From positions 4,030,230-4,094,229 of the forward strand of contig JAKZAP010000012.1 in NCBI GenBank assembly GCA_023053575.1: 64,000 bases of DNA. The letters are read 5' to 3'. Position numbers and translations under genes: made by a program. This document shows positions 352 to 59,809 of the stretch, in pieces. Position 1 is the stretch's first letter. Every line of letters begins with the position of its first letter. The stretch comes from Branchinecta lynchi. Lineage: Eukaryota > Arthropoda > Branchiopoda > Anostraca > Branchinectidae. Under the pieces are notes generated by a model. The model was given only the letters and a program-made list of their open reading frames with translations, searched no databases and was not told where the DNA came from.

Positions 352-1798
352 CAGTTCCCGCAACGATAGGCCGCCTGATGCGTCACGTAAATAAAACAAA
401 TCGCGGCAAACGTGATAATCAGTGTAATGCTAGTGAGGAAATAGGATATTACGAAGTGAAGAATCTCCGGAACGAGAATGGATGGAAATACCACTGAAAC
501 CAAATCAATTACTACAAGTACGACGTGTTGTTTAACAATTGGCATAAATCCGGAGTTATTCCACTATATTCCACTTGAAAAATGGAACGTGTGAAGATGA
601 ATAGGAAAATAAATAAATGGGTTTGCTTGAGCAGAAGACTTGCCATATCGTCCAGGAGAGGCCTTGAATTTACGAGTAAAACCTAACCAGTTGCATTCGA
701 CAAAAGCGAGAAAATGGGCAAAGGAATTTCCGCAATCATGAGCTTACGCCAGTTTAAAGAGAGTCGACGTAAGTAAGCAGGGAAGTAACTTGAGTGATGC
801 CGTCTCAGACCTTTTAGTCTGTCCGTGTCTGGGATGATAAGGAGTTGCTAACAAACAGCAGCTGCCATTGTCCCCCCCCCCCCGCCTTGTGTTGCGTGAC
901 TGTTCTAAATACCACAATCAAATAACCATAGCCGTGCCATGGTCTACAATGATTAAAGTTTCAATGTTATATGATCTTCACCAAGATATTATTAATTCCA
1001 TTCGGAAAGTCCAACAGGTCATAATAACATAACTCAAGAGAAAAGGCTTTCGCCTCTAAATAACTGAAAAGATATTTATTCAAGTCATGTTGTGAAGCTA
1101 TGAATTCAAGAGAGAATAATTCAAATAGAGACAAGGCTTAGGCTGCGTCGAGACGCTAGGCGAGACGAGGAGCCAAAATTACCCGCATATGTGTTATTAA
1201 TCCTCCACAGACGAAGATGTTTTGCTATTTTTCTCTGCTTAGAAAATTTTTCTGTTACGCTCCTCCAAAAATATGTTGGAAAAGCAAAAGCACTTACTTT
1301 AGTTGCATTTAAGATGCATGTATCTGGGAACGAGGAACAGATAGGACTTCCTATAGACTTGCTACCTGGTTTCGTTTTCTTTTGTTTCTTTTTGATAATA
1401 TGTATAAAATGTTTGCCATTTACCAAAGTTAGTGTGACTAAACTCAATTTCTTAAGATTCAGCTGTATGAACTAAACTAAACATTTGTGATTTTTTTTTT
1501 ATATAGTACTGTCGTCCTATTCTGATACGTTTGACAGTTAAAGTACAACGGGCAGATCAAACTATCATGATGTCATATTAGCTAAAATACAATTTTGCGT
1601 CAGAAATCAGTCGATTCATAGAACATTTATTTTGGCTAATTTATAATTAGCCAACGGAGTATGTTGCTGCTTGCCATTCTGCAAATTACTAGCTTTGACA
1701 AATATAAGCAGAGTTCCTAGGAACGCTGAATAAAGTTTTGTTCTTTTTTTAACGTTATTATAATATTTTATAAGTAGTGAACCGAAAGACAAAAATGC
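351..1798. other. no recognisable gene or repeat
   Basis: The only landmarks are a C run near 876-885 and a T run near 1492-1500. Open frames of 94-108 codons at 1121-1475 overlap on opposite strands and look like chance. Confidence 0.5.
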
Positions 1799-1871
1799 TC
1801 CTCAGACGAGATTTGTACCCATGACCCTCTGCTTATAAGGCAGGTGCTCTTGCCATTTGAGCTACCGATAG
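1799..1871 (-). tRNA. tRNA-Ile(UAU)-like sequence, probably a pseudogene or SINE head
   Basis: On the minus strand a D arm (GCTC...GAGC), a 7-nt anticodon loop CTTATAA (anticodon UAU), an anticodon stem CCTGC/GCAGA with one mismatch, and a T arm ATGGG-TACAAAT-CTCGT can be folded. A-box TAGCTCAAATGG and a B-box-like GGGTACAAATC are present. The acceptor ends CTATCGG and CTGAGGA do not pair, and the B box departs from GGTTCGAATCC. It is therefore unlikely to be a working tRNA gene. Confidence 0.45.
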
Positions 1872-2194
1872 AGTCCTAGACTTCTAAATTATGTTCGAAA
1901 AACTGTTTCTGGTTTATTGGTCACGGTACAAGTCCCTAGTGTAAAGTGCCATTTATGTAATATTGTTATTATTATACCTGCAAATTATTTATTAGTGACA
2001 AATGATCTATGTTGATAGCATTAGCTGACAATTCCTTGTTCTGGACTTACCTGCAAGTACGTCTGTTAAATTTATACATTTTTGGCATTTCACATTTTCA
2101 AATCTAAAACTTTATTCTCAAGCTTTTCTTTGGTACCACAAACACTAGAACTTTCGGTAAGATAGCATCTGAGCAATCTGTCAGCTGTAGTGAC

Positions 2195-2882
2195 CAGTGC
2201 TTCCACTTGCTCATCTTCAAAATCCTTCCGCGAATCCCAAAAATCCTGAAAAATCTTGCTCGGAAAGCCCTAAATCCTGCCATACGAAAAAAAAAATCCA
2301 TATTAGTTAAAGGGACGGTCTTTAAGACTCCAGTTGGAGGATTTGAACAAGCGCAGCTGAATTTGTTTTCTCTATCATTTGGGAGGGCAAGACCTCATGT
2401 GAGATACCGAGACTACCATTAAAGAGGGAGTCAATAGGATTTACCGACAAAAGGTAGAGTGTCTACAATTGTACCAAAGACAAATTTTCTTAAGCGCCGC
2501 ATGCAAACATTTTTAAATACGCTTTTTTTGTCAAAATTCAACTTAAATTCTAGCTTTTAATGAGGTTTAAGCACCCATAAATTCCAAGACTTCAACGCCA
2601 ACCAGATGTCGCGCCCTTCTTCTAATAAGGAATTTATCCTACAAAATAGGCCGCAGGCGAAATTTTGTGGGTGTCTTTTTGCGATCCAAAACGCAGACAT
2701 AATCAGAACCATAGCTTTCAAGTTATTATCAGATGGTAAAAGTGGATCGCCGAATGTAGCAATAGATTGTAGTAAAATAGAGCTTCCGTTTTCCATAAGA
2801 TATCTAATTCTCACTGCAGTCTGTTAAAAATATCAGAAAATTCCCAGGAAATCCTGAAAAATTCTGCTAAGTGGAAGCACTG
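2195..2882. mobile_element. non-autonomous hAT-type element with perfect 8-bp TSD
   Basis: Termini CAGTGCTTCCAC and GTGGAAGCACTG form the inverted ends. The flanks GTAGTGAC (2187-2194 and 2883-2890) are identical 8-bp duplications, as in hAT insertions. Length 688 bp. The inner open frames (71-85 codons) show no transposase motifs. Confidence 0.88.
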
Positions 2883-3353
2883 GTAGTGACGGTTTATCTG
2901 AGCAGCCTTGGCGCTCAGTATCACTCGGCTCTATAAAATGGTTGATTTTTCGTACTTGACCCAGAGCTTTTAAATTTGTCACGCCTTGCACGTGCTAGCT
3001 CCGAAATCGTCTCGCCGGAGCGACGAATAAGTGATGAGAGGCTAAAACAAGAAGAAGAAGAAAACAGTTTATTTTCGAAGCGCAATCTAGGATAAGTCAG
3101 AAATGTATATTTGTGAAATTAATTGAAAAATACAGCATAATTAGTGCCCATTGTACTTTAAGAATTCTGGTATCTTTCATTGCCCCGATAAGCTGCAGAG
3201 AACAACGACAGGTCAAATATTCAGAAAAGTATTATTTAATTAAATTATACTAAGAAATATTTGTTGTGTTTGATGTGCGTGCTTTCGGTGCCGTTCCAAG
3301 TTAGGTAAGTTTAACTATGTAACTGACCAAGGTCTGCAACCGACTTCGTCATA

Positions 3354-3630
3354 GACCGTGTTCCACCCCACTTACTGCGGTTCCTACGCAGGACATCACG
3401 GATTTTGGCTTCTTGGCGACAAAACTGGAAATTTGTTTTCTGTATTTTGTAAAATATAATGCCACGCGCTAAGTGGGCCGACCACGTCACAGAGATTCGC
3501 AATTACCACGCTTAGTACGCTCAATAGTTACTATTTCGAGAAGGTCGGAACGGTCAGCGTAGTAACTTTTCACGAGGTTGAACGAATTAGTAACTAACAA
3601 TTACTATTACTAGGAGGGTGGAACACGCTC
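3354..3630. mobile_element. MITE family 2 (TIR GAGCGTGTTCCACCC), copy 1
   Basis: GACCGTGTTCCACCCCACTT at the left and GGAGGGTGGAACACGCTC at the right. Internal TTACTATTTCGAGAAGGT is shared with the copies at 36-37 kb. No clear target duplication. Confidence 0.8.
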
Positions 3631-4830
3631 TCAAGACTCTCAGGCTCAGCAAATACTCTTGATGATATCCCTCCGTGCCGATGCAAAATCTCCGGCCTCT
3701 CCGGGTAACTAGCGGAAGAAAGGCAGAAGTGGTGTCACAGCTGCACCTAAAGATCGCGGTGATTGATTGACACAGGATCTGAGTCGTTCTGTTTGAGTCG
3801 TACGAACACGCTTACTCCTTCTTCCCGAGGATCACTGGCGTGTGTTGGACTTGGTCATATAGAGTATTCTATTGGCCTTATCTAAATTCCCAGCCTGATG
3901 TTTAGCCTCCTGGTGATCAAGGGCCTGAGATGGTGAAACTTCGTCAGCGACAAGGAACTGCGGCAGAAGACCCACCTTAATAGCCCGGCGTAACCTCATT
4001 ATGGTACGGTCACCTCCCCAGAATGCCACCACATACGTGCAAAGGTCATGCTGGACTTCAATCTCGATAAGAGGCCAGCTGGAAGCGACCTAGCGGCAGA
4101 CCGAAAAAACGATGGTCTAGTAGCCTTTCCAAATACTTAAAGATCAATGGGCACATCAAACTACCCCAATCCCACTCTGTAACAACCTAGGAACAAGCTT
4201 ACCCCCTAGATCAGCAGCTTTTTCAACAGTTTCCCCTCTGTGATATTTGAAAGCGTAATTTTCTGGGCCAGTACATTCTCAGTTTACTAGCTTGGACAAA
4301 GATAAAAGTGATGTTTCTTATAATACTTAGTAGATCTTTATTTTATGCATAAATCAGCTTGTATAATTCAGATTTGAATAGGTTATTTGTTTTTGAATGA
4401 TTTTCGTAGCTATTTTATTTTTTATAAGCTTATTGCATATTCTGGTACATTTTATAAAGCAAGCTAATCAAGCTTCACAACACTATTCCACAAAGAAAAA
4501 CTTTTAATAGGCAATTTAAGCCACGGAACTTCTGATGAATCACTAGAACAATCAGGTAAACTGCATCTGCGGCTTGACTTTGGTGACATCTCAAATATGC
4601 CTTTTCTATCAAGCATTGCTTGGAGTTTTTGAATTTCCTGCCACGACATCCCAGCTCCTAAGATTTGGATCGCCGAAATGCCAGAGAGGTAAAGACAAGG
4701 GATAACAAGAAAACGACCGATTTTCGTAGCGCCTTCTAAAGGAAGTCGGAAATGTTTATTTGTGAAGTATTTAATACAAAGTAAAGCATTAGAAGTGTCC
4801 ATTGTGCTTTAAAGTTGGTAAACATCAAAG

Positions 4831-6114: not shown

Positions 6115-8867
6115 TTAAAACGGTATGTTCTAAAAAGAATAATCACATAATCAAAAGCTGTTCTTTAGCGTTGTAAAACCAACAACAAAACAATATCGGA
6201 AGAAGGCTATCCGTAACGTTTCAGATTAAAATACCATAGACGACACTATTAATTATTACAAAACTACCTTATTGTTTTACATTACCGTATCGTTTGTACC
6301 CGTTGCGTAAACAGTTAATCCTAGGTTATAGCGATAGACCATCGATACAAACTTTCTTACTGTCATATTTACAGAAATCAAATACAATGTGCACCAATTT
6401 TCAAAAATTTCTAGCCCCTCGTGAACCGATCTTACTTACAAGTCCGTCTCCCGTGATTGACATCAAATTCACCGGAAACAAATAATGGATACACCAGCTA
6501 TCAAAAGTTGCAAACCCCTCATCGCTGAAGATGATTATAGCATAAAGCCGATTATTACTTACAAGTCCCATGCATGTCTTACAATTGGGAACAAAATTGT
6601 TCTTACCATCGAATACACCTGAGACAAATAACAGGTATACCAACTAGCAAAAGCTGCAAACTCCTCGTTGCCGAAGATAATTATGAGCTAACAGTCGACT
6701 GTTGCTACTTACAAGTCTCTTGCATGTTTTACATTTGGGAACCAAATTGTTCATCAAATGACAGGTACGCCAACTAGCGAGAGCTGCAAACCCCTCATTG
6801 CCGAAGATGATTATGAGCTAACAGTCGCCCTGTCGCGTACAAGTCCCCTAAATGTCTCAAAACTGGTATCGCCTATTTTTGGTTTCAGTGTGTACCTTAC
6901 TACTGAAGTTGTCAACCCCTTGAAACTTTCAAACTGGTGTATCTCATAAAGGAATTTTTTTACCAAAAAATGGATGTCATATACTTTGATCAGCTCATCA
7001 GCGGCTATCGATTGCCGTCGAAGTTGAACTTTATCCTTTTCAATCGTAGATATCTTGACGGATGAAAACTTGGAACAATTTCTTATATAATCTAGTTGAT
7101 ATTATAAAGCTATCCGTAACTTTTCAGGATTAAAATACCATAGATGACACTATTAATTATTACAAAATTACCTTATTGTGTTACATTACCGTATCGTTTG
7201 TACCCGTTGCGTAAACAGTTAATCCTAGGTTATAGCGATAGACCATCGATACAAACTTTCTTACTGTCATATTTACAGAAATCGAATACAATGTGCACCA
7301 ATTTTCAAAAATTTCTAGCCCCTCGTGAACCGATTCTTACTTACAAGTCCGTCTCCCGTGATTGACATCAAATTCACCGGAAACAAATAATGGATATACC
7401 AGCTATCAAAAGTTGCAAGCCCCTCATCGCTGACGATGATTATAGCATAAGCTTTTTAAACGGGATGTTCTAAAAAAATTAATCACATGATCAAAAGGTA
7501 TTCTTCAGCGTTGTAAAAACAACAACAAAATAATATAGGAAGAAGGGACTAAATTAACTTTGCAGTCAGTTGTACTTTATCCTTTTCAATCGTAGACATC
7601 GTGACGGATGAAAACTTGGAACAATATCTTATATGATCTAGTTGGTAATAGAAAGCTATCCGTAACTTTTCAGGATTAAAATACCATAGATGACACTATT
7701 AATTATTATGAAACTACCTTATTGCTTTACATTTTCGTTTGTATCCGTTGTGTAAACAGTTAATCCTCGGTTACATTGATAGACCATCGACACAAACTTT
7801 CTTACCGTCAGATTTATAGAAATCGAATACAATGTGCACCCATTTGCAAAAATTCCTAGCCCCTCGTGAACCGATTCCTACTTACAAGTCCCTCTCCCGT
7901 GATATACATTAAGTTAACCGGAAACAAATAATTGGTACACCAGCTAGCAAAAGCTGCAAACCCATCATCGCAGAAGATGATTGTAGCATAACAGCCGATT
8001 ATTACTTACAAGTCCCTTGCATATCTTACCATTGGGAACCAAATTGTTCTTACCATCGAAAAGGAGCAAAGGATAAGCTCTAGTTTCTTTAGCAATGAGA
8101 GAACTTCTAAAGTTTAAGAGTTCATCTGATACCATTTCTCTACCGCAAACCCAAGTGCAAAAAAACGAATGATAAACTCAGCTGAAATCGCGTACACAAA
8201 TGGATAGTTGCGTAAACAGTTAATCCTAGGTTACAGCGATAGACCATCGATACAAACTTTCTACCGTCAGGTTTATAGAAATCGAATACAATGTGCACCA
8301 ATTTACAAAAGTTCTAGCCCCTCGTGAACCGATTCTTACTTACAAGTCTCTCTCCCGTGATAGACATCAAGTTCACCGGATAAAAATAATGGGTACACTA
8401 GCGAGCAGAAGTTGTGAACCCCTCATCCCTGAAGATGATTGTAGCATACAATGTGCACCCAATTGCAAAAATTCCTAGCCACTCGTGAACCGATTCCTAC
8501 TTACAAGTCCCTCTCCCGTGATATACATTAACCCTTAAACGAAAACAAATAATGGGTACACCAGTTAGCAAAAGTTGCAAACCCATCATCGCAGAAGATG
8601 ATTGTAGCATAACAGCCGATTATTACTTACAAGTCCCTTGCATATCTTACCATTGGGAACCAAATTGTTCTTACCATCGAATACACCGGAAACAAATAAC
8701 AGGTACACCAACTAGCAAAAGCGGCAAACCCCTCATTACCAAAGATGATTATGAGCCAACAGTCGACTGTTGCTTAAAAGTCCCCTACATGTCTCATAAC
8801 AGGTATCGCCTATTTTTGTTTTCGTGTACCTTACTACTGAAGTTGTCAACCCCTTTGAAATTTTCAA
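6115..8867 (+). repeat. tandem mosaic of ~250-bp and ~131-bp diverged repeats
   Basis: A block containing AAACAGTTAATCCTAGGTTA and CTAGCCCCTCGTGAACCGAT recurs at about 6309, 7215, 7756 and 8213, all on the plus strand. A subrepeat with CTAGCAAAAGCTGCAAAC and CCGAAGATGATTATGAGC recurs every ~131-136 bp (6501, 6635, 6768). Part of the mosaic (8061-8200) also appears at 16151-16285 beyond the foldback element. The short open frames here are repeat artefacts. Confidence 0.85.
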
Positions 8868-8875
8868 ACTGGTGT

Positions 8876-9420
8876 GGGGTCCCGTCAGTACCGCAACACG
8901 TCAGTTGACATAAACGTCAGTTCGCCACAGAATTCCGTCAGTACGCCAACATTTTCCGACAGTTCGGCTACACGTCAGTTGACCCCCAAAAATCCGTCAG
9001 TTGAACAACACGTCACTTCATCAACACGTCAGTTGACCAACACGTCAGTTGGCCAACACGTCAGTTGCCCTACACGTCAGTTGACCAAACGTCAGTTCGC
9101 CTACTGTCAGTTGACATAAACGTCAGTAGACCTACACGTCAGTTCACCTAATCCTAAAATCCGACAGTTCAGCTACACGTCAGTTCGCCTACCGTCAGTT
9201 CGGCTACCGTCACTTCACATAAGCGTCAGTTGGTATAAACGTCAGTTGACATAAACGTCAGTTTGTATAAACGTCAGTTGGCATAAACGTCAGTTCACAC
9301 ACATTTTCCGGAAGTTTGCTCACATGTTGTTGTCGACGGGATAGTTACGGAAGCTCGCCCAGGGGATTAATAAGAGAAGCCGACAATTCACTTTTAATGA
9401 GGGCAAAAATTAAGTCAGGA
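8876..9420 (+). repeat. left inverted terminal repeat with 16-bp CGTCAGTT array
   Basis: Roughly 25-30 copies of CGTCAGTT followed by a variable 8-bp spacer (GACATAAA, GGCCAACA, CGCCTAC) occur at about 16-bp spacing from 8881 to 9295. Unique sequence follows, with GGGGATTAATAAGAGAAGCC near 9362, which also has its inverse in the right end. Confidence 0.9.
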
Positions 9421-9642
9421 GGCTCTTGTCAATCCTGACAGTTTTGGTTCACGTTACGAAAGAAAGAATACGGTTGGTAGACACCAGGGAAAACTCTCAT
9501 TGTAATTGATAGCTTCGCTAAGCTGGGGTCAGGGAGGCGAATAAGGACAGTCGGTTCTGATAAATGTATTTTGAAGAGAGCTAGCTTACAACTTCAAGAT
9601 ATAAATAATAATTGCTGGGCAACTAAAACACAATTAGATTTT

Positions 9643-10867
9643 TATGGCACTTGCAGCTCCGCCATATACCGATCACTTTTTGGTCGGTCGGTCCACTGTT
9701 CTCGAGTAGGGTACTTCCAGAAGTTCTAGGACGATGAAACTTGGCAAGCATATTAGGGACCCGACCAAACTAGCTTGGAAATAGTCACTTGACCGATCCG
9801 ACCATCGTGGAGGGAGGGGGAGGTGGCGGAATCCAGAAAACAGGGGCATGCATAACTTTCGAAGAGGTGATCGGATCTTAATGAAACTTGATATCTGGAA
9901 AGACCTTGTGTCTCAGATATCTCATATCAAGTCCGGACCGGATCCGATGAATCGGGGGGGGGGGGGGGGGAGTTGGAGGGGGGAACTGGAAATCGTGTGA
10001 AACTCTTAGAGTGGAGCGATCCGGATGAAACTTAGTGGCAAGAACAAGAACAAGCTCTAGATAAACAACTGACAGAACTGGATCGGATTCGGACACTATG
10101 GGGGGAGCTGGAGGGGGGCTCCGGAATTCCGGCGATCCGTAGTTAATGTACTTCTAGGTGGACTAGGACGATAAAACTTGGTAGGCATATCAGGGACCCG
10201 ACCAGATTAACTTGGAAACAGTCACTCCCCCATCCGACAGTCGTGGGGGAGGGGGAGACGGCGGAATCCGGGAATTAGTGGCATGCATAACTTTCGAACG
10301 GGTTATCGGATCTTAATGAAACTTGATATCTTGAAAGATCCCACGTCTCAGATGTCCCGTTTCAAGTCCGGACTAGATCCGATCAACTGGGAGGGGGGGT
10401 CGGAGGGGAGAACCGGAAATCTTGTGACGCGCCTAGAGTGGAGCGATCACGATGAAACTTAGTGAGAAGTACAGGCACAAGTCCTAGGTAAGTTACTGAC
10501 AGAATCGAACCGGATTCGAGGGGGAAGGGGGGGGGGTGTCCGGAATGATCGTGAGTTAAGGTACTTCCAGATGTGCTAGGACCATAAAACTTTGCTGGGG
10601 TATTAGAAACTTGACATCATTGGGTTAGAGATCACCATTCCTTAAAGAACTCATCTTAACCGCAAAATACAAAAAACACTTTTAAGCAAAATTTACTTTT
10701 TCACGATCGCCATGTACATGATCCTTTTTGCCTCAAGGGTTTTTCTTAGAAATTAATTTTCAGCACCCTTATAGTGCGAATCTTAACCAGAAAGTGGAAA
10801 CAATACTTCTGACCATCACTTTCATCTGACCCAGCCTTGCAAGTGCCATTTGAGCTTCCAGCTCTTA
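9643..10867 (+). repeat. hairpin-ended repeat family, copy 1 (two inner units)
   Basis: The copy begins ATGGCACTTGCAGCTCCGCC and ends TGCAAGTGCCATTTGAGCTT followed by CCAGCTC. Inside are about two ~470-bp units, each with CTAGGACGATGAAACTTGGC, a G-rich tract, CATAACTTTCGAA and TGATCGCGAG-like motifs. It abuts a GGATCC-family copy at 10868. No coding potential seen. Confidence 0.8.
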
Positions 10868-11934
10868 CTTTTGGGATCCCAAAACGTACGTGGAGGGATA
10901 CCTATGACATCGCAAAAGTTGTCCGTCTGTCTGTCCGTCCGTCTGTAGCACGATAACTCTCGAAGGGAATGAGATATTTTGATGAAACTTAGTGTGAGGA
11001 TTCGTTGGGTCGTCGGACAAGTCAAGTTTGAAGATGGGCTTTGTAGCCCTACATTTAGGGGTGGGGGGGGGGGGGTTTCAAATTAAGGGGCAAACAAAAT
11101 ATTTTGAAACAGCTAATGTGATAGTCGATTAACATGCTGAACACGATGGTGAAAATCATTTTGTTATCGAACAAGTAGTTCGCCCGGAATCCGGCCCAAA
11201 CCCGAAAGTTTGTTAAAAGTAAAAGTTTTATTGTAAGCTGATTAGATGTTCGATTTAGGGGTAGGAAGACACGCTGAACACGGTGGTGAAAACCATTTTC
11301 TCGACGGACAAGTATTTCGACCGGAATCCGGCCCAAACCGGAAAGTTTGTTAAAATTAAAAGTTTTAGTTGAAGTTGATTAGATGTTCGATTTAGGGCAA
11401 GAAGACATGCTGAACACTTATGTGAAAAAAAATTTCTATCCAGACATGTAATTCGCCCGGAATCCGGCCAAAACCGGAAAATTGGTAGAAGTTAAAGTTT
11501 TATTTCTAGTTGATTAGATAACAAGGGGTAAGAAGAGATGCTGAATCCGTGTGTGACAATCATATTTTACCCGGACATATAGTTCAACTGGAATCCGGCT
11601 GGACTCGGAAAATGTGTTATAAGCTAAATTTTTATTTGAAGTTGACTAGATGTTCATTATTGGGGAAAGAAGATACCCAGAGTTCATTTTTGAGCTTTCT
11701 TTTTTTTTCGCCGGACAATTAGTTCTGGAGTTTGGCCGAAATCGGGAAATTGGCGGTAGTGGTAGGAAGTTTTTCTCAGATGATTAGCTATTTGGCCTTA
11801 ATCTGTTTCTGAATTTTAATTGTAAGAATGTTCAAGGAGTCTGGCGATGACTGGATTTGGCTAAGACAAGACCCAGTTGTCTGGATCAGATATTGAATTG
11901 TTGGGATCCCATCGAAACCTTTGGTCTTGTTTTT
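10868..11934 (+). repeat. GGATCC-palindrome repeat family, copy A
   Basis: The head is TTTTGGGATCCCAAAACGTA, then GTGGAGGGATACCTATGAC and GTCCGTCTGTCTGTCCG. Several ~110-bp tandem units (GACATGCTGAACAC, CGGAATCCGGCC, GTTGATTAGATG) follow. The tail has GTCTGGATCAGATATTG and TTGGGATCCCATCGAAACC, ending GGTCTTGTTTTT. No coding potential. All five fuller copies in the window share this strand. Confidence 0.85.
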
Positions 11935-12290
11935 CATCGCTGAGGGATAGCTAGGCCTATGAGACTAATGATTGCGTCATCAGTTCACACAAAATATGTT
12001 TTTAGAATATAAACTTTTGAAATCCACGATGAGTTGACTACTTCCCCACGATGGTCGGATCGGGTAAGTAAGCGACTTAGGGTTTTTACAGAAAACACAT
12101 ACATCTTAAAAATTTTTGTCTGCGACAACTGTTGTTTGGAAAGTAATCTGGTCGATTTTTACCATGAAGGAGTCTGATTTTCGAAATTTCTGACTGCGGC
12201 ATAAAGTTTTAAAACAGTCTGGTTCACTCTGTGTTAAAACTGTCTGTATTTAAGTAGAAAAATATTTATTTTCCATTTTTTTTTTGTAAA

Positions 12291-12427
12291 TAATGCATAC
12301 AGCGGGTACGTCAGCTACGATGCTTTGGCAGCGATATTTGGCCCTTCTTGGCAAGGGTCCTCGTCAGGCTGTCAATGTTCATCCCTGCCAATGAATCGTA
12401 GCAGACGTACCCGTTGTATGCATTATT
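12291..12427. mobile_element. short foldback element (TIR AATGCATACAACGGGTACGTC)
   Basis: TAATGCATACAGCGGGTACG at the left is inverse to CGTACCCGTTGTATGCATTA at the right. The middle has CGATATTTGGCCCTTCTTGG. Related pieces lie at 22803-22917, 24861-24905, 32165-32372, 33700-33790 and around 34040-34400. Confidence 0.8.
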
Positions 12428-12476
12428 TGAATATATTTTTCAAGGTCAGCTTGGGCTCAAGGAATATTTTTTTTTC

Positions 12477-13883
12477 ATGGCACTTGCAGCCTCTGGCTCA
12501 AGTGCCATATACCGATCATAATTCCGTCCGTCGGTCTGTCGGTCGGTCCGGTTTTTTTGTCACATTTTTTCGAATTAGGGTACTTCCCGATGTACTAGGA
12601 CAATGAAACTTGGCAGGCATATCAGCAACCCAACCAAACTAACCTGGAAATAATCAGTTTCCCAATCCAACCATATTGAGGGAGTGGAGGGCTGTGTGAA
12701 CTTGAAAATTGAGGGCAGTTTGTCACACTTTTTCGAGTTCGGGTACTTCCAGATGTGCTAGGACCATGAAACTTGGCAGGCATATCAGGGACCCGACCAA
12801 ACAAACTTAGAAATAATCAGTTTTCCGATCCGAACATCTCGGGGGGGGGGGGAAGGCGGGGGAATCCGGGAAATTGAGCAGTGTGTAACTTCCGAACGGG
12901 TGATCGGATTGGAATGAAACTTAGTAACTGAATAGATTCTATATGTCTGATGTCCCGTTTAAGGTCTTGACCATATTCGATAGCTAGGGGGGAGTTGGGG
13001 GGGGGGAGACCGGAAATCTCGAGAAACGGTTAGAATGGAGGGATCGGAGTGAAACTTACTGGGAAGTACAAACATCTGCTCCAGGTTAATCTTTTACACA
13101 ATTGGACTGGATCCGGACACTTCGGGGGTGGGGGTGTAGGGGGTTTCCCGGAATTCCAGTTTCTGGGGATTTTCATGACGTAACTTGGCAGGCATATCAG
13201 GGACCCGTTCAAACTGACTTGGAAATATAAAAAAATCTTCGATATGATAATCTTAGGGGGGAGTGGAGGGAGGGAAATCCTGAATATTGAGTCATGTGCA
13301 ACTTTGGAACGGCCGATCGGATTCGAGTGAAATTTAATAAATGAACAGAGGACATATCCCTGTGGCGATCTTCGTCATTTCCGGATCGGATCCGACAACT
13401 GTTGAGGGGGGGGGGGGGAATACTAGACCCGCTTAGACTAGTGTGATCGGGATCGAACATTGTAGAATAACAAACAGATGCTCTGGGCATCATTTACAGA
13501 ACCGGATTGGCTCCGGGTATTTTGGGTGGAGTTGTAGGGGGGGGGTCTGGGATTCCGGTGATCGCGAGTTAAGGTACTTCCAGATGAGCTAGGATGACGA
13601 AACTTCGCTGGAATATTAGATATTCAACAAGATTTGCTTATAAATAGCTACTTCCCAAATCCGACTATTACCGTATCAACCTTGACCGCAAAGTAAGAAA
13701 AATACTTTTAAGCAAAATATGTATGTTCATGGTCCCCATCAGCCAAGTGTAATTTTTGCCTCAAGGGTTTTGCTTACAAATGAAGTTCTAGCTCCCTTAC
13801 AGCGCGCCTCTTAACCGCAAAGTTCTTTTGATGAAAAATATATCTTAACCCCTGCAAGTGCCATATGAGCTTACAGCTCTTGT
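12477..13883 (+). repeat. hairpin-ended repeat family, copy 2
   Basis: The start is a hairpin, ATGGCACTTG-CAGCCTCTGGCT-CAAGTGCCATAT, and the end is AAGTGCCATATGAGCTTACA-GCTCTTG. Two to three diverged ~450-bp units with poly-G tracts (12840-12852, 13404-13414) lie between. Confidence 0.8.
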
Positions 13884-14163
13884 TTTGTTTTTATGAATTT
13901 TTCTGAACTATTGGAATAATAGCTATTTCTGGGGAGAAAATTTATTGATGTTAGGCTCTAATGTGGATAATGTGGCTCTATATTAGAAACTTTTTATTTT
14001 AGCAGACAGAAATATATTTTTTTTACTTTTTTAATTTATTCTGAAGGGGGAGCTTGAAAGTAAAAGGCTCATTAAGAACTAACTTGTGAATGGGACTGGT
14101 GATTGCATTACTATCAATTAACAGAAAATTCTAGTTTTATCTACTATTTTGGATGGCTACTAC

Positions 14164-15196
14164 TTTTTGGGATCCCGCACCTATGACTTCGTAAGAGTTG
14201 GCCGTCTCTCCTCTGTTAGCACGATAACTCTCGTAGGGGTTGAGATATTTCGTTCAAATTTGGCATAAAGAATCTTTGGGTCAAAGTACAGGTCAATTTC
14301 GAAGATGGGGTCTGTAGCCCTATATTTAGGGGTCGGGAGGGGGGTCAAATTAAGGGACAAAAAAATATTTTAGAATCTAATAAGATAATCGATTCAGAGA
14401 TAAGGAGAAATGCTGAATCCGAATATGAAAATTATTTTCGCGCCGGAAAAGTAGTTCACCGTGAATCCGGCAAAAACAGGAAAATTTCTGAAAAAGAAAT
14501 GTTTAATCTGAAGTAAATTAGAGGTTCAATTTAGGGGTAAGAAGACACACTGAACACGTATTAAACAATTTTTTTTTTCGCCGGACAAGTAGTTCGCCTG
14601 GGATCCGGCCCAAACCGGAAAATTTGTATAACATAAAAGTTGTATTTGAGCTTGATTAGATGTTCGATTCAGGCTTAATAAGACATGCTGCATCCGCATA
14701 TGACAATTATTTTCTACCCGGACATATTCTCCCGGAATCCGGCTGAAAAAGTAAAGTTTTGAAAAAGTAAACGTTTTTATCTGAAGTTGATTAGAGGATG
14801 GGTGTAGTGGTAAGGAAGCATGCTGAACCTATGTGTCAATATTCCACGCCGGACAAATAGTTCGGGCTCCGGCCAAAACCTGAAGATTCGTTAAAAGTTA
14901 AAGTTTTATCTGTAGTATATTGTAAGGTAGTATATAGTACTTAACGGACAAGAAGCTCGCCAAGAACCAGGCAGAAACCGGAAAATATGTGGGCAGTAAG
15001 GCAACTGGAAGTTTTGATCAATTTCGTCAAAGTATATCCGACTTATAGGAGTAAACACGCAAGCTGAATCCACGTCTCTCTGTTTCTAAATTCCAGTTAA
15101 AATTGGTTGGCGAAGACCGGATATTTATCTACAAGATCCAACTGTCTGGATCAGATATGAAATTTGTGGGATCCCGTCGAAACCTTTGGTCTTGTT
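14164..15196 (+). repeat. GGATCC-palindrome repeat family, copy B
   Basis: Head TTTTTGGGATCCCGCACCTA, tandem units with GACATGCTG and GGAATCCGGC, tail TGTGGGATCCCGTCGAAACC and GGTCTTGTTT. Lies inside the 7.1 kb foldback element together with copy A. Confidence 0.85.
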
Positions 15197-15424
15197 TGAA
15201 GACAATAGAGGAAGCACTGACCAAGAGCCAAGAGAAAAGAGTTCGTCCCTCACTGTTTCCGGTACCCTTTCGGAAAAGATTGAGAATCACTGGCATATTT
15301 TGGTCCTTCACCTTGCGATGGTTGTTAAGCCCTTATTTGTGTTTAATTATACGTTCACCTCATATTTTTCAGTTTTCGTTTGACTAGCCCCGTCTGCCGC
15401 ATCTGATTGCAAGCTCCCGGTGAT

Positions 15425-15983
15425 TCTTAACTAATTTTACCCTCATCAATATGCGCAAATGTCGGCTTCTTTTTATTAATCCCCTGGGTTTTATTACCTC
15501 TGCTTAATTGCTTTCGGTGACCCAGTCGACTTCGAACTAATAGGCGGGTCTGAATCTCTGGGGGTGGTGACGGATTTTGTAGGCGAAGTGACGTTTATGT
15601 CAACTGACGTTTATGTCAACTGACGTTTATGTCAACTGACGTTTATGTCAACTGACGTTTATGTCAACTGACGGTAAGCGAACTGACGTGTAGGGGAACT
15701 GACGTGTAGCTGAACTGACGTGTTGACGAACTGACGGATTTCTAAAATAGGTGAACTGACGGTGACTGAACTGATGTTTATGTCAACTGACGTTTATGTC
15801 AACTGACGGTAGGCGAACTGACGTGTAGTGCAACTGACGTTTAGGTGAACTGACGTGTAGGCGAACTGACGTGTAGTGGAACTGACGTGTAGGGGAACTG
15901 ACGTGTTGACGTACTGTCGGATTTTTCGTATAGGCGAACTGACGTTTATGCCAACTGACGTGTTGCGGTAGTGACAGCGACCC
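15425..15983 (-). repeat. right inverted terminal repeat with 16-bp array
   Basis: This is the inverse of the left end. Several consecutive exact units of TGACGTTTATGTCAAC lie at about 15597-15670, followed by more variable units out to 15960. The internal part (GGCTTCTTTTTATTAATCCCC near 15465) matches the inverse of the left end near 9362. Confidence 0.9.
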
Positions 15984-15991
15984 ACTGGTGT

Positions 15992-16813
15992 ATCTCATGA
16001 AGGAATTTTTGTACCAAAAAATGGATGACATATACTTTGATCAGCTCATCAATGGCTATCGATTGCCGTCGAAAAAAAAATTCTACCTGTCTTAGTTCAA
16101 AAGTTGACTTTTTTGCCGTGGGCCAACTTTCTAACGTCACGACTTAGAAAGGAGCAAAGGATAAGCTCTAGTTTCTTTAGCAATGAGAGAACTTTTAAAG
16201 TTTAAGGGGCACATCTGATACCGTTACTCTACCGCAAACCCAAGTACAAAAAAATTGTTTAATAAACTCAGCTGGAATCGTCGCAGACATGGACAGAAAC
16301 AATAGATGGCAGCACTTTCGGACCCGTGGGAAAAAGCCACTTTTTTGTCTCTGTAGATTTTTCTATTTATCACTAAAAGAAGATATGTTGGCTGTGGGGC
16401 CGGGTAACTGCCGCATATATTTAACACTTATAGATTTTAGTCCATCTTCAATTTGAAACTGGTGCCTGCCTGCTAGCGTGCTAGAACGGAGCTTTCCACT
16501 CGAAAGCAGAAACATGGTTTGATGAAACGAAAGGTTCGCTACACAACTTGAGATGGTCCTCTCCGACATAGGCTATACAACTCCACTTCACTTCGCAAAC
16601 CGTAGGCTCTGGCTCGATGACAAGCAAAAACCATCCTTATTGGCCCCAGGCAAGAGTTCTACGGAGCTTTCCAAAATGTAATGTCATATTCATCAATCCG
16701 GCCTAAGGTCCACACTTTCCGTAAAAACCGCACAGGTTAGACCCTTCCCAGTTACCAGGAATAAAATGAAATCGGAGTCATAGGAAAAAAAAAAAAAAAA
16801 AAAAAAAAACAGG
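15992..16813 (+). repeat. right part of the mosaic interrupted by the foldback element
   Basis: 15992-16073 continues the target sequence also seen at 6944-7024. 16151-16285 repeats 8061-8200. The rest to 16783 has no recognisable features apart from the A run at 16784-16809. Confidence 0.7.
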
Positions 16814-34410: not shown

Positions 34411-35361
34411 TTCGCTGTCGCCCTCGTGGCAATCATCGCCGTCAACGCAGAGAAGAAATACAGCAAGTACGAGAACGACTACGACAACAGCGCCGCCCGT
34501 TATGATTTCGCATGGGGAGTCAGCGACGGTTCCACCGCCAACGACTATGGACATAAAGAGACACGAGATGGCGATAAAGTCACGGGTTCCTATTCAGTTC
34601 TCCTTCCAGACGGTAGGCGGCAGGTGGTTACCTACTACGTAACTGCCGAGTCTGGCTACGTAGCGCAAGTTAGCTACGAAGGTGAAGCCAAGTATGACGA
34701 TAGTTACAAGAAGTCTGACTACAGCTACAAAGCGCCGGCATACAAAACAGCAACGACACCAGCACCATATGTGGAAAAGTACCTAACAACGTCCAAGCCT
34801 AGCTACGAAAAATACCCTACCACCGACAAGCCAAGCTACGAAAAGTACCCTACCACCTACAAGCCTAACTACGAAAAGTATCCCACTACCTACAAGCCAA
34901 GCTACGAAAGATACCCGACTACCTACAAGCCCAACTATGAGGATAAATACCCAACTACGTACGGCTACGAAGAAAAATACCCAGCTACCTATAAGCCAAC
35001 ATACAAACCAGCCTACCAACCAACCTACCCCGAATATTCCCCAAGCGCTGATTACTCTGCAGCCTACAAGCCAACTTACAATTCACCCCAATACCCTGGG
35101 GAGTACCCGTCAGCCGGGTATCTGCCTTCCTACAAGCCAAACTACGCCTCGTCATCTTACAACCCGGCCTACCCCAAACAGAACCCCACCTATGGCCAGG
35201 CCTACAACGGCCAGTACCCAGCTGGCTATGGGCCTCGCTACCCATCCACTGAGTACAAACCCAGGTACGGCCAGTACTCACGACCCATCGAGGCAGCAAC
35301 CACGACAACCCTACCCGAAGAAAGTGCTGAAGTAACAACACCGCTGCCAAATGAGAACTAA
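34411..35361 (+). CDS. RR-type chitin-binding cuticle protein (pro-resilin-like), exon 2 to stop
   Basis: The exon follows a tatatttcag acceptor, opens in phase 0 with FAVALVAIIAVNA (the hydrophobic part of a signal peptide), and runs 316 codons to TAA. Cuticle protein genes typically place the first few codons, including ATG, in a separate small exon; that exon was not located. Residues about 31-95 form a Rebers-Riddiford chitin-binding domain, with YDFAWGVSDG, ETRDGDKVTGSYSV, PDGRRQVVTYYV and SGYVAQVSYEGEA. Next come roughly five imperfect 11-residue repeats of the type KPSYEKYPTTY, then a Tyr/Pro/Gly-rich tail and a Thr-rich acidic C-terminus. This composition fits an extensible, secreted exoskeleton protein. 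An AATAAA lies at 35614, about 250 bp past the stop. The gene sits inside an intron of CPSF5 on the other strand, and its stop is only 405 bp from the flanking exon. The frame is intact. Assignment to the RR family is firm; the pro-resilin label is inferred from the repeat tail. Confidence 0.93.
   Translation, partial: FAVALVAIIAVNAEKKYSKYENDYDNSAARYDFAWGVSDGSTANDYGHKETRDGDKVTGSYSVLLPDGRRQVVTYYVTAESGYVAQVSYEGEAKYDDSYKKSDYSYKAPAYKTATTPAPYVEKYLTTSKPSYEKYPTTDKPSYEKYPTTYKPNYEKYPTTYKPSYERYPTTYKPNYEDKYPTTYGYEEKYPATYKPTYKPAYQPTYPEYSPSADYSAAYKPTYNSPQYPGEYPSAGYLPSYKPNYASSSYNPAYPKQNPTYGQAYNGQYPAGYGPRYPSTEYKPRYGQYSRPIEAATTTTLPEESAEVTTPLPNEN
34790..35010 (+). repeat. 33-bp coding minisatellite in the cuticle gene
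   Basis: Four to five tandem 33-bp units encode 11 residues each (KPxYExYPTTx), with Ser/Asn, Lys/Arg and Asp/Tyr alternation. They degrade into KPTYKPAYQ-type sequence downstream. The phase is kept, so copy-number change would alter protein length without a frameshift. Confidence 0.85.
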
Positions 35362-38716: not shown

Positions 38717-39485
38717 TTTTTGGGATCCCAAAACGTAAGTGGAGGGATACCTATGACATCGCAAAAGTTGTCCGTCTGTCCGTCTGTGCGCTCTATAACT
38801 CTCGAAGAGAATAAGATATTTTTGATGAAACTTGGTGTGAGGATTCACTGGGTCAAGGGTAAGGTCAAGTTCGTAGATGGGCTCTGTAGCTCTACATTTA
38901 GGGGTGGGGAAGGGGGTTCACATTAAGGGACAAACAAAATATTTTTAAACAGCTAATGCGATAGTCGATTGTGGCGTAAGAAGGCATGCTGAGCACGTTA
39001 GTGAAAACCATTATCTCGCCGGACGATTAGTTCGTCCGGAATCCAGCAAAAACCGGAAAGTTGGTTAAAAGTAAAAGTTTCATTTGAAGTCGATTAGATG
39101 TTCGATTTAGAGGTAAAAGGACATGCTGAACACGATGGTGAAAACCAGGTATATCTGAACTTGGTTTTCTCTGTGGTTCATTTAGGGGGTAAGAAAACTT
39201 GCTGAACACGATGGTGAAAACTATTTTCTCGCCGAACAAGTAGTTCGTCTGGAATCCGGCAAAAACCGGAAAGTTGGTTAAAAGTAAAAGTTTCATTTGA
39301 AGTTGATTAAATGTTCGATTTAGAGGTAAAAAGACATGCTGAACACGACGGTGAAAACCAGGTATATCTGAACTTGGTTTTCTCTGATGATTAGCTTGGC
39401 GAAGACTGGATCTGGCGAAGACAAGACCCTATTGTCTGAATCAAATATTAGATTTTGGTATCCCATCAACACCTTTGTTCTTGTT
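38717..39485 (+). repeat. GGATCC-palindrome repeat family, copy D
   Basis: Head TTTTTGGGATCCCAAAACGT, two to three ~110-bp units containing a local duplication (39080-39170 against 39290-39385), tail TTTTGGTATCCCATCAACACC. It interrupts the ~150-bp CGAATCCTGGACC tandem family, which helps to place its ends. Confidence 0.85.
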
Positions 39486-41419: not shown

Positions 41420-42217
41420 GACAAGAGGGTCGATATAAGGGTAAGCAGACATGCTATATCCAAATATGAAATTTATTTTGACGCAGGACAATTAGTTCGC
41501 TTGGATTCTGGCCAAAACCGGAAATTCACAGGACGGTAAAAGTTGTTCCTGAAGCTGATTACAGGGTCCACAAAAGGGTAAGTAGACATGCTGAATCCAA
41601 ATCTGAAATTTGTTTTGACGCCGGACAATTAGTTCGCTCGAAATCCGGCTAAAACCGGAAATTTCCAGGAAGGCAAAAGTTGTCCTTGAGGCTGATTATA
41701 GGCCCGATATAGGGGTAAGGAAACATGTTGAATCCATTTTTCAGCTTCAATTTCTTACCGGAAAAGTAGTTCGCTCAGAATCTGGCCAAAAAGGGTAATT
41801 CGGCGAAAGACAAAAGTTGTTTCTGAAGCTTATTACAGGGTCGAAATAGAGGTAAGGAGACATGCTGAATCCAAATCTGAAATTTCTTTTTACGCCGGAC
41901 AACTAGTTCGCCCGGAATCCGGCCAAAACTGGAAATTTCTACATTATATTTATATACATGTACATGTAAATACATAACATTACCCTATGATCTCTATCAG
42001 GAAGTCTATTAAATATTCACTGTTGGGATCTCATCGAAACATCTGGTCTTGTTGTGTCATGCACCAATACAAAGCCTGTAGGTTATCTTACTATCTAACA
42101 GAAATACCTTTTCGTGTTTTTGTCTAGTACAGGTTCGGATTCATAGATCAGGTTATTATCAGCTAAGGGTTTGCAGGAAAACAAAGCTTATTCAAAGCTC
42201 TTAAAGCGCCTTCAATT

Positions 42218-46259: not shown

Positions 46260-46899
46260 CGAACCCACCACAACCACCCCCATTACCACCACACTGCGTC
46301 CTACCATCCAAAGCGAAACACAAGGACCCTACTTACCGCTTTCACAAGCATAGAACTAGAAGAAGCCATTTCCAGCATGAACCAGCAGTCAGCCCCAGGC
46401 ATGGACGAAATCCGCATACCATGGATAGTGAATTCCGGCAAGTCTTTCAAATCCCACCTCTTAAACACATACAATGCGGCATGGATCCAGAAAATCTTCC
46501 CCAGAGTATGGAAAACAGCCCAAGCCCATACTCAAACCAGGGAAAAATCCAGAAGAACCCAAATCATATAGACCAATCTACCTTCTCCCAGTCTTGGGAA
46601 AGGTCTTCGAAAAAATTATCTACTGACGTCTAGAATGGTTCATGGAGACCAACAACATCATCCCTTCGTGTCAGACCGGGTTTAGAAAAGGCCACAGTAC
46701 AATTGACAACATTGTCATTCTGGAACAAACGGTGAAAGAGGCTTTCGAAAACGGGGAAATTGTAGTCGCCGCGCTCCTCGACTACGAAGGAGCCTACGAA
46801 AAGAAACTCAAGGAAGTAATGGACAACAAAGACTTTCCGAAAGAGGTCACCAGCTTCATCGAAGACTATCTCAACGGAACTCACCACAACCAGAGATAA
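46260..46899 (+). pseudogene. LINE ORF2, reverse transcriptase N-terminal part, broken
   Basis: Different frames give ELEEAISSMNQQSAPGMDEI, then a YRPIYLLPVLGKVFEKIIY-type block, then CQTGFRKGHSTIDNIVILEQ and VVAALLDYEGAYE. These match RT blocks 0-3, including the first catalytic Asp region (LDYEGAYE). The sequence stops at YLNGTHHNQR followed by TAA. The second catalytic motif (Y/F-A-D-D) and all later RT and thumb blocks are absent, and RNase H-linker sequence follows directly. An internal deletion of the RT core has therefore occurred. An in-frame stop also precedes the block at 46633. Confidence 0.87.
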
Positions 46900-47892
46900 C
46901 CTCCGCCTGGCAAAGATTCATCTCAAGGGTCCCCAACTGGAGAGACTCCAAAATCACAGTATATCCATTCCCAAACACACCACCATGGGAATTCAGGAGC
47001 CCATCAGTCGAGCTTCAACTACTCCCATTCAGAAAAGACAAATACTCTGACTTAGAGGTTCAACAGATGTTTCTCGACAAGATGCAAACTGACTTCCCAA
47101 ACCACACCCAGGTATACACAGACGGCTCTGTGAAAGATGACAATGCCGGCGCAGCAGCATCCATCCCTGCATTCAACATGATTGCCACCAGAAGAATAAG
47201 CAACCACTCCTGCACAATGTCAGCAGAACTAGAAGCTATCCTAATGACAGCAGAAGTCCTATCCCGAAGACCCCCTCCAACACGGAAAGTGATCTTTCTC
47301 ACAGATTCGAAGTCCGCGCTCCAGGCCATTAAACAAATTCACCGATGTCGACCTGACCAAAATCCGAAACCTACTGTTGACATTACAGTCAAACGGTATA
47401 GAGTGCACCTTCCAACACATCCCAAGCCACAAAGGCATATGTCAAAATGAAGTGGTCGACAAACACGCTGGCAAAGCCCCAACTAGCAACCGGTTCTCTC
47501 AACAACCAACAACAGCGAGAGACACATCCAGAGCAAGAACCTCAACACCCAACCTCCGACCATACTGCTCACCATTCAAAGATAGACTGAGATCATGCAT
47601 CTTCTACAGGCTGAAATCTCAAACCATCATTCTGAATAAAACCCTTTTCGATTGGGGCACAACCCACTCCCCAAACTGCCGTATGTGCCAGGCTGAAGAT
47701 GAAACACCCCAACACTTCTTTTTTGAATGCCGCATCCCCCGACGAAGAAGCCGTCAACTGAAAAGCTTGTGCGACGAGCTAAAACTCCCGAACCAATTTC
47801 AAGTCATCACCAGTGCCAAACTCCCGGCCCAACCAGAATTCAAAATTTTCAAGATTTTGATTGAGATGCTAGTGGAGAACGGAGTCTACTAA
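46900..47892 (+). pseudogene. LINE ORF2, RNase H domain and C-terminal zinc knuckle, frameshifted
   Basis: The frame at 47067-47450 reads VYTDGSVKDDNAGAA, SAELEAILMTAEVL and FLTDSKSALQAI, the D-E-D catalytic motifs of RNase H. A frameshift near 47390 moves the remainder to 47377-47892, which gives HIPSHKGICQNEVVDKHAG (the final RNase H His/Asp motif). The C-terminal knuckle CRMCQAEDETPQHFFFEC follows (Cys-x2-Cys-x7-His-x4-Cys). An RNase H after the RT is characteristic of the I, Ingi and R1-related LINE clades. The 3' region ends in a short GATGATGAT tract near 47990, as I elements often do. Confidence 0.88.
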
Positions 47893-48274
47893 GCAAAAAT
47901 TCTGACCGAAAACAACCACCATCGATCAACCGAGAAGGCAGAAAGAGATCTACACGAAGTGGAACTCAACACCATTCAAACCTTATGATGATGATCTAAA
48001 CAATAAAGTTAACTACTTTTTCAAGCATATAGACTTAAAACTGAGGATCCCTTTTGCACATAATGGAAAGGAAATAAGTCTGGAGTTCTATTTATTGAGA
48101 TTTTACATGAATTTTATTTTTATTTGCAGATATTTGAAATTTCCGCCAAAAAAATAGACGAAACGTCGTTTCCGCGAGTTTCAACTCGTGGCTCGACTGT
48201 GTGGCACACAATCGTTTTTCCGCGACAAACACCCAGAAGTGTGTGGCCCACAATTGTGTCGCAGAAAAAGGCCT

Positions 48275-48600
48275 TAAAGGTTTTCCAAGATTTCCGGTTT
48301 CCCCCCTCCAGCTAAACCCAAAGTCGACGGGTCCGGTCCGAATTTTAAACGGATCGTCTGAAACTTTCCAAATATCAAGTTTCATTAAGATCCGATTACC
48401 CGTTCAAAAGTTATAAATACCTCTAGGGTCCCTCCCTCTACTCCCCCCACGATGCGCAAGTCGGTGAAGTGACTATTTCCAACTTAATCTTTTGGGGTCA
48501 CTGATATGCCTGCCAAGTATCGTCGTCCTAGCTTATGTGAAAGTGCCCGAACTAGCAAAACCTGGAAGAGACGGACGGACAGAAAATGCGAGCAAAAATG
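48275..48600 (-). repeat. hairpin-ended repeat family, copy 5, right fragment
   Basis: The copy resumes with TTTTCCAAGATTTCCGG, ATATCAAGTTTCATTAAGAT and GCCTGCCAAGTATCGTCGTC in the same orientation as 44036-44315. A duplicate lies at 59329-59654. Confidence 0.75.
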
Positions 48601-48755
48601 CATTGCTGTAATTTGCACACTTGCACACCCTGCCACACTAAACTGAGCGCAGCCACAAGAGTTGCAGAACAGTCAAGCATCTAACACCAGAAAGACGATT
48701 GCATATAACTTGTAACTGATGGGTATGTTCGGGGATAGCCCTGTTGATGACTTAC

Positions 48756-48968
48756 CAGGTACAGCAGACTCGACGTATTGGCTCCAACCAGTATCTTCGT
48801 CGATTGGGATCTCAAATGCACTTGACATAATTTCTCTCTCGTTTGCAGCTGCTGCGTCGTCCGCAGGGTGATAATCAATTCTCCCTTTTATAGACATAGG
48901 ACCTTTCGCCCCAGCTCTGACATATTTTCTGGGTCTTTTTTTTCTTTGAGGCGTTTTACAACAAGCTA
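48756..48968 (-). other. possible protein-coding exon of unknown identity
   Basis: On the minus strand an open stretch reads TPQRKKRPRKYVRAGAKGPM, then SIKGRIDYHPADDAAAANER and SSAFEIPIDEDTGWSQYVES, ending AVPG at a good donor (CTG-GTAAGT, 48751-48757). The mixed, polar composition and donor look exon-like. No family recognised. It may equally come from a transposon. The duplicate lies at 59810-60022. Confidence 0.35.
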
Positions 48969-49838
48969 TGCTTTAAGGATGGTATTATAAGCTTCAATTT
49001 TATTCCTTCGTACAAAAGCACGGCCAGTTTGCAGACACAGACATTGCTCTCCGAGAGGCAGCTGCATGTGAATTTCAAAAGCAGGGACTTCTTCGAAGAA
49101 GCGTCAGCTCTGATCGAGTTTATGTACACCGTCATGGCTTCTTGTTCCTTTCTTACCAGAGATACACTTGTGCCAGAGATATTTTCACTAAGTACACACG
49201 CTCATTATGGTCCCAGCCAACACCTCCTTATCGCAAGATAGCATTTGCCAAATGGATAAAAGAGAAACAGGACAGATCTTCCACGGCCTTGCCCTGATCC
49301 AAATTTTCTGTTTCCAAAAGCAAACGCTGGTATGCTTCTTACGGACTTTCTTTTGGATTTGGTACTTCGCGCATTACAGCTGGTTCTTTCTTGCAGTGGT
49401 CGATCAATAATTTAAGGTCACCAATTCCTTGGTAGCCGCGACACACCAAAGAATAGCAGTACTAGTCCATCGAAAGAAGCCCCATGATACAAACATCCAT
49501 GGCGACCCCACTTGGCTTCTGGATAATCCTTTGGGTCACCACATTCAAAGACTCAGCCGTGTTGTTGACAATCCCTAAAATAAAAAAAGGAATACGAACA
49601 GACAAAGGGTATCTCCGGGTGCATCCCTCTAGATCTAACTGCAACCGAACTATCATTATCATGGTAATGGAAGAGGGAAAAACAAAAGAAATAACAACCT
49701 TAATAGAGATGATTAAGATTCAAATATTAAGATACAAATTTATACTATAATAGTAAAAAATTATTCATAATATAAAATAATTAGTATTGAAGATTGCACA
49801 AACAGTGAAATTAAACACCGTCAGTGGAGATTGAAAGC

Positions 49839-59328: not shown

Positions 59329-59809
59329 TAAAGGTTTTCCAAGATTTCCGGTTTCCCCCCTCCAGCTAAACCCAAAGTCGACGGGTCCGGTCCGAATTTT
59401 AAACGGATCGTCTGAAACTTTCCAAATATCAAGTTTCATTAAGATCCGATTACCCGTTCAAAAGTTATAAATACCTCTAGGGTCCCTCCCTCTACTCCCC
59501 CCACGATGCGCAAGTCGGTGAAGTGACTAGTTCCAACTTAATCTTTTGGGGTCACTGATATGCCTGCCAAGTATCGTCGTCCTAGCTTATGTGAAAGTGC
59601 CCGAACTAGCAAAACCTGGAAGAGACGGACGGACAGAAAATGCGAGCAAAAATGCATTGCTGTAATTTGCACACTTGCACACCCTGCCACACTAAACTGA
59701 GCGCAGCCACAAGAGTTGCAGAACAGTCAAGCATCTAACACCAGAAAGACGATTGCATATAACTTGTAACTGATGGGTATGTTCGGGGATAGCCCTGTTG
59801 ATGACTTAC

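Follow-up and report, generated by a model that had tools for sequence, protein, structure and literature searches.

A foldback transposon family with motif-array ends in Branchinecta lynchi and its probable mobilization by a Mutator-type transposase

A 64,000-nucleotide stretch of the genome of the anostracan Branchinecta lynchi (assembly GCA_023053575.1, contig JAKZAP010000012.1, positions 4,030,230 to 4,094,229, forward strand; here called the window) contains an element of about 7 kb that is, as good as certainly, a foldback transposon. The element belongs to a family, named family A, which is young, numerous, and recently mobile in its own genome. Family A is non-autonomous and is probably moved in trans by a Phantom-like Mutator-type transposase, which combines a FLYWCH domain with a Mutator-like element (MULE) domain and is encoded elsewhere. 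Because no copy examined encodes its own transposase, the element was classed as a foldback, and MULE is used here for its mode of working, not for a proven membership.

Structure of the element and its insertion site

The sequence-only reading had proposed a foldback transposon at 8876-15983, flanked by an exact 8-bp duplication. Both boundaries were exact, with ACTGGTGT on either side (Table 1). The element starts with GGGGTCCCGTCAGT and ends with GTGACAGCGACCC, and its long ends are inverted and contain tandem repeats, as is typical of a foldback. Each arm, including its inner domain, is about 540 bp long. When motifs of the CGTCAGTT type were counted at no more than one mismatch, the left arm had 25, of which 17 are exact, and the right arm had 22, of which 20 are exact. 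Across 2,000 mononucleotide shuffles of the left arm, the count averaged 0.13 and never exceeded 3. The earlier estimate of 25 to 30 motifs in ends of roughly 550 bp is a slight overestimate for the right arm. Neighboring motifs are mostly 15-16 bp apart, some spacings are 21, 22, or 25 bp, and a single spacing of 41 bp in the right array falls at a degraded motif. The two termini are unequal, GGGGTCCCGTCAGT at the left and GGGTCGCTGTCACT at the right, and both are followed by the common sequence ACCGCAACACGTCAGTT. The left terminal motif was retained in the listed family-A copies.

An empty relative of the target had also been proposed nearby. The flanks of the element, joined with a single ACTGGTGT, aligned across the junction to positions 6624-7022 of the window, which is a paralogous repeat and not an allelic empty site. 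Another copy (left flank of L016, G000:C7:10683160) was found in a repeat that resembles the target of the window copy (window 16008-16038), inserted tens of bases further along, which indicates that this target repeat has been hit at least twice.

Table 1. Positions of the foldback element, its parts, its empty target paralogue (all in the window), and two resident MULE families (in the loci named)
Feature	Position	Strand	Remarks
Whole foldback element, family A	8876..15983	+	7,108 bp
Left target-site duplication	8868..8875		ACTGGTGT
Left terminal motif	8876..8889	+	GGGGTCCCGTCAGT; only GGG in common with the right terminus
Left array	8883..9295	+	413 bp; 25 CGTCAGTT-type motifs, mostly with a 16-bp period
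Left-arm inner domain	9296..9420	+	contains CAGGGGATTAAT; mirrored in the right arm; direct reading
First Helentron-like unit	9643..10870	+	ends ATGGCACTTG and CAAGTGCCATTTGAGCTTCCAGCTCTT; putative class
137-bp minisatellite	11132..11673	+	about 4 copies
Second Helentron-like unit	12476..13885	+	putative class
138-bp minisatellite	14401..14771	+	same family as the 137-bp one; about 2.7 copies
Right-arm inner domain	15450..15585	-	ATTAATCCCCTGGG; direct reading
Right array	15586..15960	-	375 bp; 22 inverted motifs
Right terminal motif	15970..15983	-	GGGTCGCTGTCACT (read inward)
Right target-site duplication	15984..15991		ACTGGTGT
Empty target paralogue	6624..7022	+	one ACTGGTGT at 6933-6940
MULE family M	L074, reverse complement 1289-4222		2,934 bp; exact 8-bp duplication ACCCAGGC; termini GGGTTCCGG and GGGTCTAGG
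MULE family M2	L077, 2166-4184		2,019 bp; exact 8-bp duplication CTTCCGGA; termini GGCTACATATCACGAG and GGGAGCATATCACGAG; 15-bp repeats

Copy number, size, and age of family A

Family A was counted in the 576-Mb assembly of the host. The genome-wide search for other ends, which the sequence-only reading had suggested, used a 31-base pattern over both termini with no more than two mismatches. It found 376 termini (186 forward and 190 reverse), and a reversed-pattern control found 0. End coordinates were listed for 100 of the 376 termini, all on C1-C9 of the assembly. The arms were also searched separately, and 40 matches were scored among 970 candidates for the left arm, 890 for the right arm, and 651 for a second family, family B. 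The scored matches to the left arm were up to 99% identical across its full length, and those to the right arm likewise.

Among the 100 listed ends there were 33 adjacent left-right pairs, of which 20 measured 6.5-7.4 kb, 10 were shorter (231-5,775 bp), and 3 were longer. The non-coding 7-kb form is thus the common form of family A. A 9,009-bp pairing on C7 was rejected, since a right end closer by yields a pair of 4,162 bp, which has no duplication. Copies without consistent ends or 8-bp duplications had been named as evidence that would speak against the transposon. Both ends are shared among copies, and exact 8-bp duplications, with no visible consensus, were present in 20 of the 24 left-right pairs whose flanks were read (15 of the 33 listed pairs and 9 from elsewhere, leaving out a right-right pair on C4 and one mis-pairing on C7). 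Exact duplications were also found at a 730-bp copy, in which the right arm is down to two motifs, and at a 231-bp copy.

The mean pairwise difference among 16 of the best-matching copies, a set chosen for closeness to the window copy, was 1.3% over 545 bp, which indicates that these copies moved recently. Arm lengths of 545, 561, and 577 bp were observed, and the differences are whole 16-bp units gained at the inner end of the array. Rearranged ends were observed at two places on C4. In L027 (G000:C4:3174719 and 3174755) two left ends stand face to face, 35 bp apart, and the element at G000:C4:1902216-1907941 has two right ends.

Family B and the spacing of the motif

Family B is a diverged family with many copies, which has the same CGTCAGTT motif and other spacers (units such as CCCACCCGTCAGTTCG). 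In the family-B copy at C3:3957300 the right terminus, GGGTCGCTGTCACTACC, is identical to that of family A in 17 of 17 bases. A family-B copy on C9 carries a Helentron-like unit and minisatellite sequence similar to those of family A, in the same order.

The spacings between motifs were collected from five arms of families A and B. Of 133 spacings of no more than 40 bp, 90 were 15-16 bp, 28 were 19-22 bp, 14 were 24-26 bp, and 1 was 32 bp, and the steps between these classes (4.5-5 bp) are close to half a helical turn. Since the units share ancestry, the classes are a pattern and not a proof of constraint, and the conservation of the motif across the arms of both families is partly built in by the selection of windows by motif.

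Search for a transposase and resident MULE families

The statement that no transposase remains in the window element was borne out, as its largest stop-to-stop frame is 122 residues, and a tblastn search of the element with MULE proteins gave nothing significant (best E 0.17). Full copies with a transposase, which were to be recovered according to the sequence-only reading, did not turn up among the copies examined.

The genome contains 22 MULE matches, and the surroundings were read for 10 of them. Two resident families, M and M2, were delimited (Table 1), and PF10551 is present in both. The frames of M show the MULE domain alone. Among the 120 relatives listed for the M protein, many have FLYWCH (PF04500) and MULE (PF10551) together, and most of those proteins are about 460-475 aa long. 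As in family A, the 8-bp duplications of M and M2 are exact, the termini are unequal and rich in G, and the ends contain short tandem repeats; repeats such as CCAAAACCCCCCGGTA were found in the ends of relatives of family M. M and M2 differ from family A in that MULE transposase sequence is present and no CGTCAGTT array was seen in L074 and L077. The termini of M agree with those of family A at 7 of 9 positions on the left and 10 of 17 on the right. The large MULE frames on C18 and C162 (L072 and L073) were rejected as the source, since no CGTCAGTT array is present there. The MULE frame in L079 was rejected as a partner, since it is outside a family-B end, at a distance of about 0.4 kb, and such nearness proves nothing. 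The MULE copy at L079 2522-4164 has its right end inverted along with its duplication.

Mobilization of family A and alternative explanations

Mobilization by a MULE is favored because 8-bp duplications without a consensus are as MULEs make them, and because the resident families M and M2 share the duplication length, the G-rich unequal termini, and the repeat-laden ends. It is also favored because the termini of M resemble those of family A, with a chance of about 0.0015 given the GGG start at both ends, a figure uncorrected for the two MULE families inspected. Arthropod MULE termini mostly begin with G/C bases. The Phantom-like type is favored because Tm1, an element with a FLYWCH transposase, is built on this plan, in which an unequal terminal motif precedes tandem repeats of 13-15 bp, and because many of the listed relatives of the M protein join the FLYWCH and MULE domains.

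Besides that lack of correction, several observations weigh against this explanation. None of the 10 MULE matches with surroundings read sits between family-A arms, and the 10 MULE matches on C1-C9 are all at least 22.9 kb from any listed family-A end. The termini of M2 match those of family A in the GG start only, and the repeat unit of M differs from CGTCAGTT. Four of the 24 pairs are without a duplication (C12a, C8b, the 4,162-bp pair on C7, and an 807-bp pair on C22), the right end of C8b being without its last 13 bp, and the family-B copy at C3:3957300 is also without an 8-bp duplication. Furthermore, MULE matches are few, while nearly identical copies of P elements are present.

Under MULE mobilization, the transposase would be made elsewhere, and its DNA-binding part would dock on the repeated CGTCAGTT motif. 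Many sites per end may give higher specificity and help in pairing distant ends. The unequal outermost 14 bp would be the cut site, and on insertion the target would be cut in a staggered way and the gaps filled to give 8 bp. The arrays gain and lose whole units, and the interior is a passenger composed of Helentron-like repeats. Cooperative binding at the arrays would fit the spacing classes, which do not prove it. A bolder proposal, which we put forward tentatively and consider rather unlikely, is that the arrays are a phased docking platform. The CGTCAGTT sites, in half-turn steps (about 16, 20.5, and 25 bp), would be read by one transposase common to at least two diverged families, A and B, which have no transposase of their own and in which the terminus and the motif are kept and the spacers are not. 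The families would then parasitize an autonomous MULE with great success, and in spreading through the genome they would carry along Helentron-like repeats that they had captured and seeds of minisatellites, in loads of 7 kb.

The main rival, which we regard as improbable, is the Galileo-like parallel drawn in the sequence-only reading, in which a P-superfamily transposase mobilizes the element and its THAP domain binds the repeats. P elements also make 8-bp duplications, and P and Galileo termini start with CA. Thirteen P matches were found in the genome, the longest open frame among them reaching 1,069 aa, and three sampled P copies are 99.5-99.8% identical over their aligned parts, which indicates that P moved here recently. 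In the cited parts of its descriptions, Galileo has duplications of 7-8 bp (PMC4168063), and as a foldback it has tandem repeats to which its THAP domain binds (PMC3688188). However, the 20 duplications of family A without a consensus show no preferred target sequence as in P and Galileo, and the termini start with GGG, unlike the CA of those elements. No CGTCAGTT array was present in four P loci (about 3.4 kb each, with the element ends not reached), and the 5 P matches on C1-C9 were all at least 536 kb from any listed family end, so the parallel was not upheld. P-superfamily transposase loci were recorded in L095, L096, and L098 (C18, C19, and C3) and in L097 (C13), with P copies at C18:20489891, C19:28090835, C3:4763540, and C13:15474340. 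It is likewise quite improbable that the element is moved by a transposase of some other superfamily, be it hAT, KDZ/Zisupton, or one still undescribed; 8-bp duplications occur in hAT and Zisupton, but hAT termini usually start with CA or TA, Merlin (PF12762, IS1595-type DDE) had 0 matches in the genome, and the MULE features seen in M and M2 fit better.

Another explanation, compatible with mobilization by a MULE, accepts the transposon and gives the arrays no binding role. The arrays would be slippage products of unequal exchange, and the termini alone would matter. That the arms differ by whole 16-bp steps speaks for it, as does the occurrence of exact duplications at the 730-bp and 231-bp copies, although these two may have lost length only once they were in place. 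The spacing classes could also descend from a few ancestral unit types. However, the motif (which was also the selection criterion) is kept in families A and B while the spacers differ, and repeats within Galileo ends were bound in vitro, according to the cited part of PMC3688188. This explanation is possible, but we consider it doubtful.

Interior sequences and nested insertions

The interior of the foldback consists of other repeats (about 6 kb), and this loaded form is the common one. The two Helentron-like units of the window copy are related, with ends ATGGCACTTG and CAAGTGCCAT(A/T)TGAGCT..AGCTCTT, and each is followed by a 137- or 138-bp minisatellite. The 137-bp minisatellite also stands alone in the window at 38976-39386 and 41426-41937, and it was seen in inverted blocks flanking the MULE frame in L075 (1012-1851 and 3839-4632).

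The long copies were considered as autonomous members and rejected. The C7 copy (21,452 bp) and the C9 copy (18,536 bp) each consist of a 7-kb copy in which a Polinton/Maverick-like element is nested, and the extra 4 kb or so of the C8 copy (11,161 bp) is an insertion in the right arm with Helentron-like ends. Exact foldback duplications are present at all three copies. The insertion in the C8 copy has no evident target duplication, which would fit a rolling-circle element of the Helentron type. In the C7 copy the nested element has A32-type ATPase, rve integrase, and double jelly-roll domains, and 6-bp duplications were found at the nested junctions in the C9 and C7 copies (GTAGTA and ATCGGA). 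In these two foldback copies (L065/L066, G000:C9:2242679-2261324; L067-L069, G000:C7:12342476-12364037) the nested elements are in opposite orientations and at different places. The shorter copies were also rejected as autonomous, since 10 of 11 interior probes (L084-L093) were the 7-kb interior with deletions. In the remaining probe, L083, about 1.25 kb in the middle had no match, and the largest frame of the probe is 114 aa.

Other features of the window

The frame on the + strand at window 34426-35361 is that of a cuticle protein (PF00379, Chitin_bind_4) whose tail is repetitive, and its best relatives include Daphnia, Artemia, and decapod proteins. At about 46621-50424 and 57675-61478, frames and motif matches repeat, always 11,054 bp apart, which indicates that the stretch, in which there is a non-LTR (long terminal repeat) retrotransposon, is duplicated or is an assembly duplicate.

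Comparison with described elements

Sea-urchin TU and Drosophila FB are also built as foldbacks and have short tandem units in their outer ends. Tetris of Drosophila virilis is, like family A, a foldback that is non-autonomous and has ends containing tandem repeats; in the cited part of its description it has 8-10 bp duplications, no transposase copy was found, and it was put in Mutator by duplication size (PMC4079207). It differs in its 220-bp units and few complete copies (PMC4079207). Galileo of the P superfamily resembles family A in its foldback-like ends with tandem repeats and its 7-8 bp duplications, but it has a target consensus (GTATTAC; cited part of PMC4168063), a P transposase, and much longer repeat units. 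The duplication of Rehavkus, as given in the cited part of PMC6446971, is 9 bp, in contrast to the 8 bp of family A. The mosquito MULE Muta1 makes 8- or 9-bp duplications without preference in yeast.

A binding role of the tandem repeats in Foldback/Phantom ends was called untested in 2013 (cited part of PMC3688188). Within a single genome, family A provides a natural series: its termini number in the hundreds, its arms vary in length by entire units, and its copies range from 231 bp to 7.3 kb. Its sister, family B, has the motif in common with it but not the spacers, and the resident MULEs are candidate donors, all of which makes the role of repeat-laden ends in transposition directly testable. 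It also presents, as its common form, a transposase-less element that carries about 6 kb of other repeats.

The nearest described design is that of Tm1 of root-knot nematodes, of the Mutator/Foldback family. In the cited sections of its description, Tm1 has unequal 7-bp terminal motifs, a variable count of 13-15 bp tandem repeats, and then an inner domain, with 8-10 bp duplications (mostly 9 bp) without a consensus and a Phantom-like FLYWCH transposase (PMC3169594). Non-autonomous and MITE-like (miniature inverted-repeat transposable element) members occur alongside the transposase-bearing form (same sections of PMC3169594). As far as those sections describe Tm1, family A differs in its 16-bp unit of another sequence, its 8-bp duplications, and its 7-kb interior, and no transposase-bearing member was found among its copies examined. 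The two nevertheless share unequal outer motifs, short tandem repeats, an inner domain, and consensus-free duplications.

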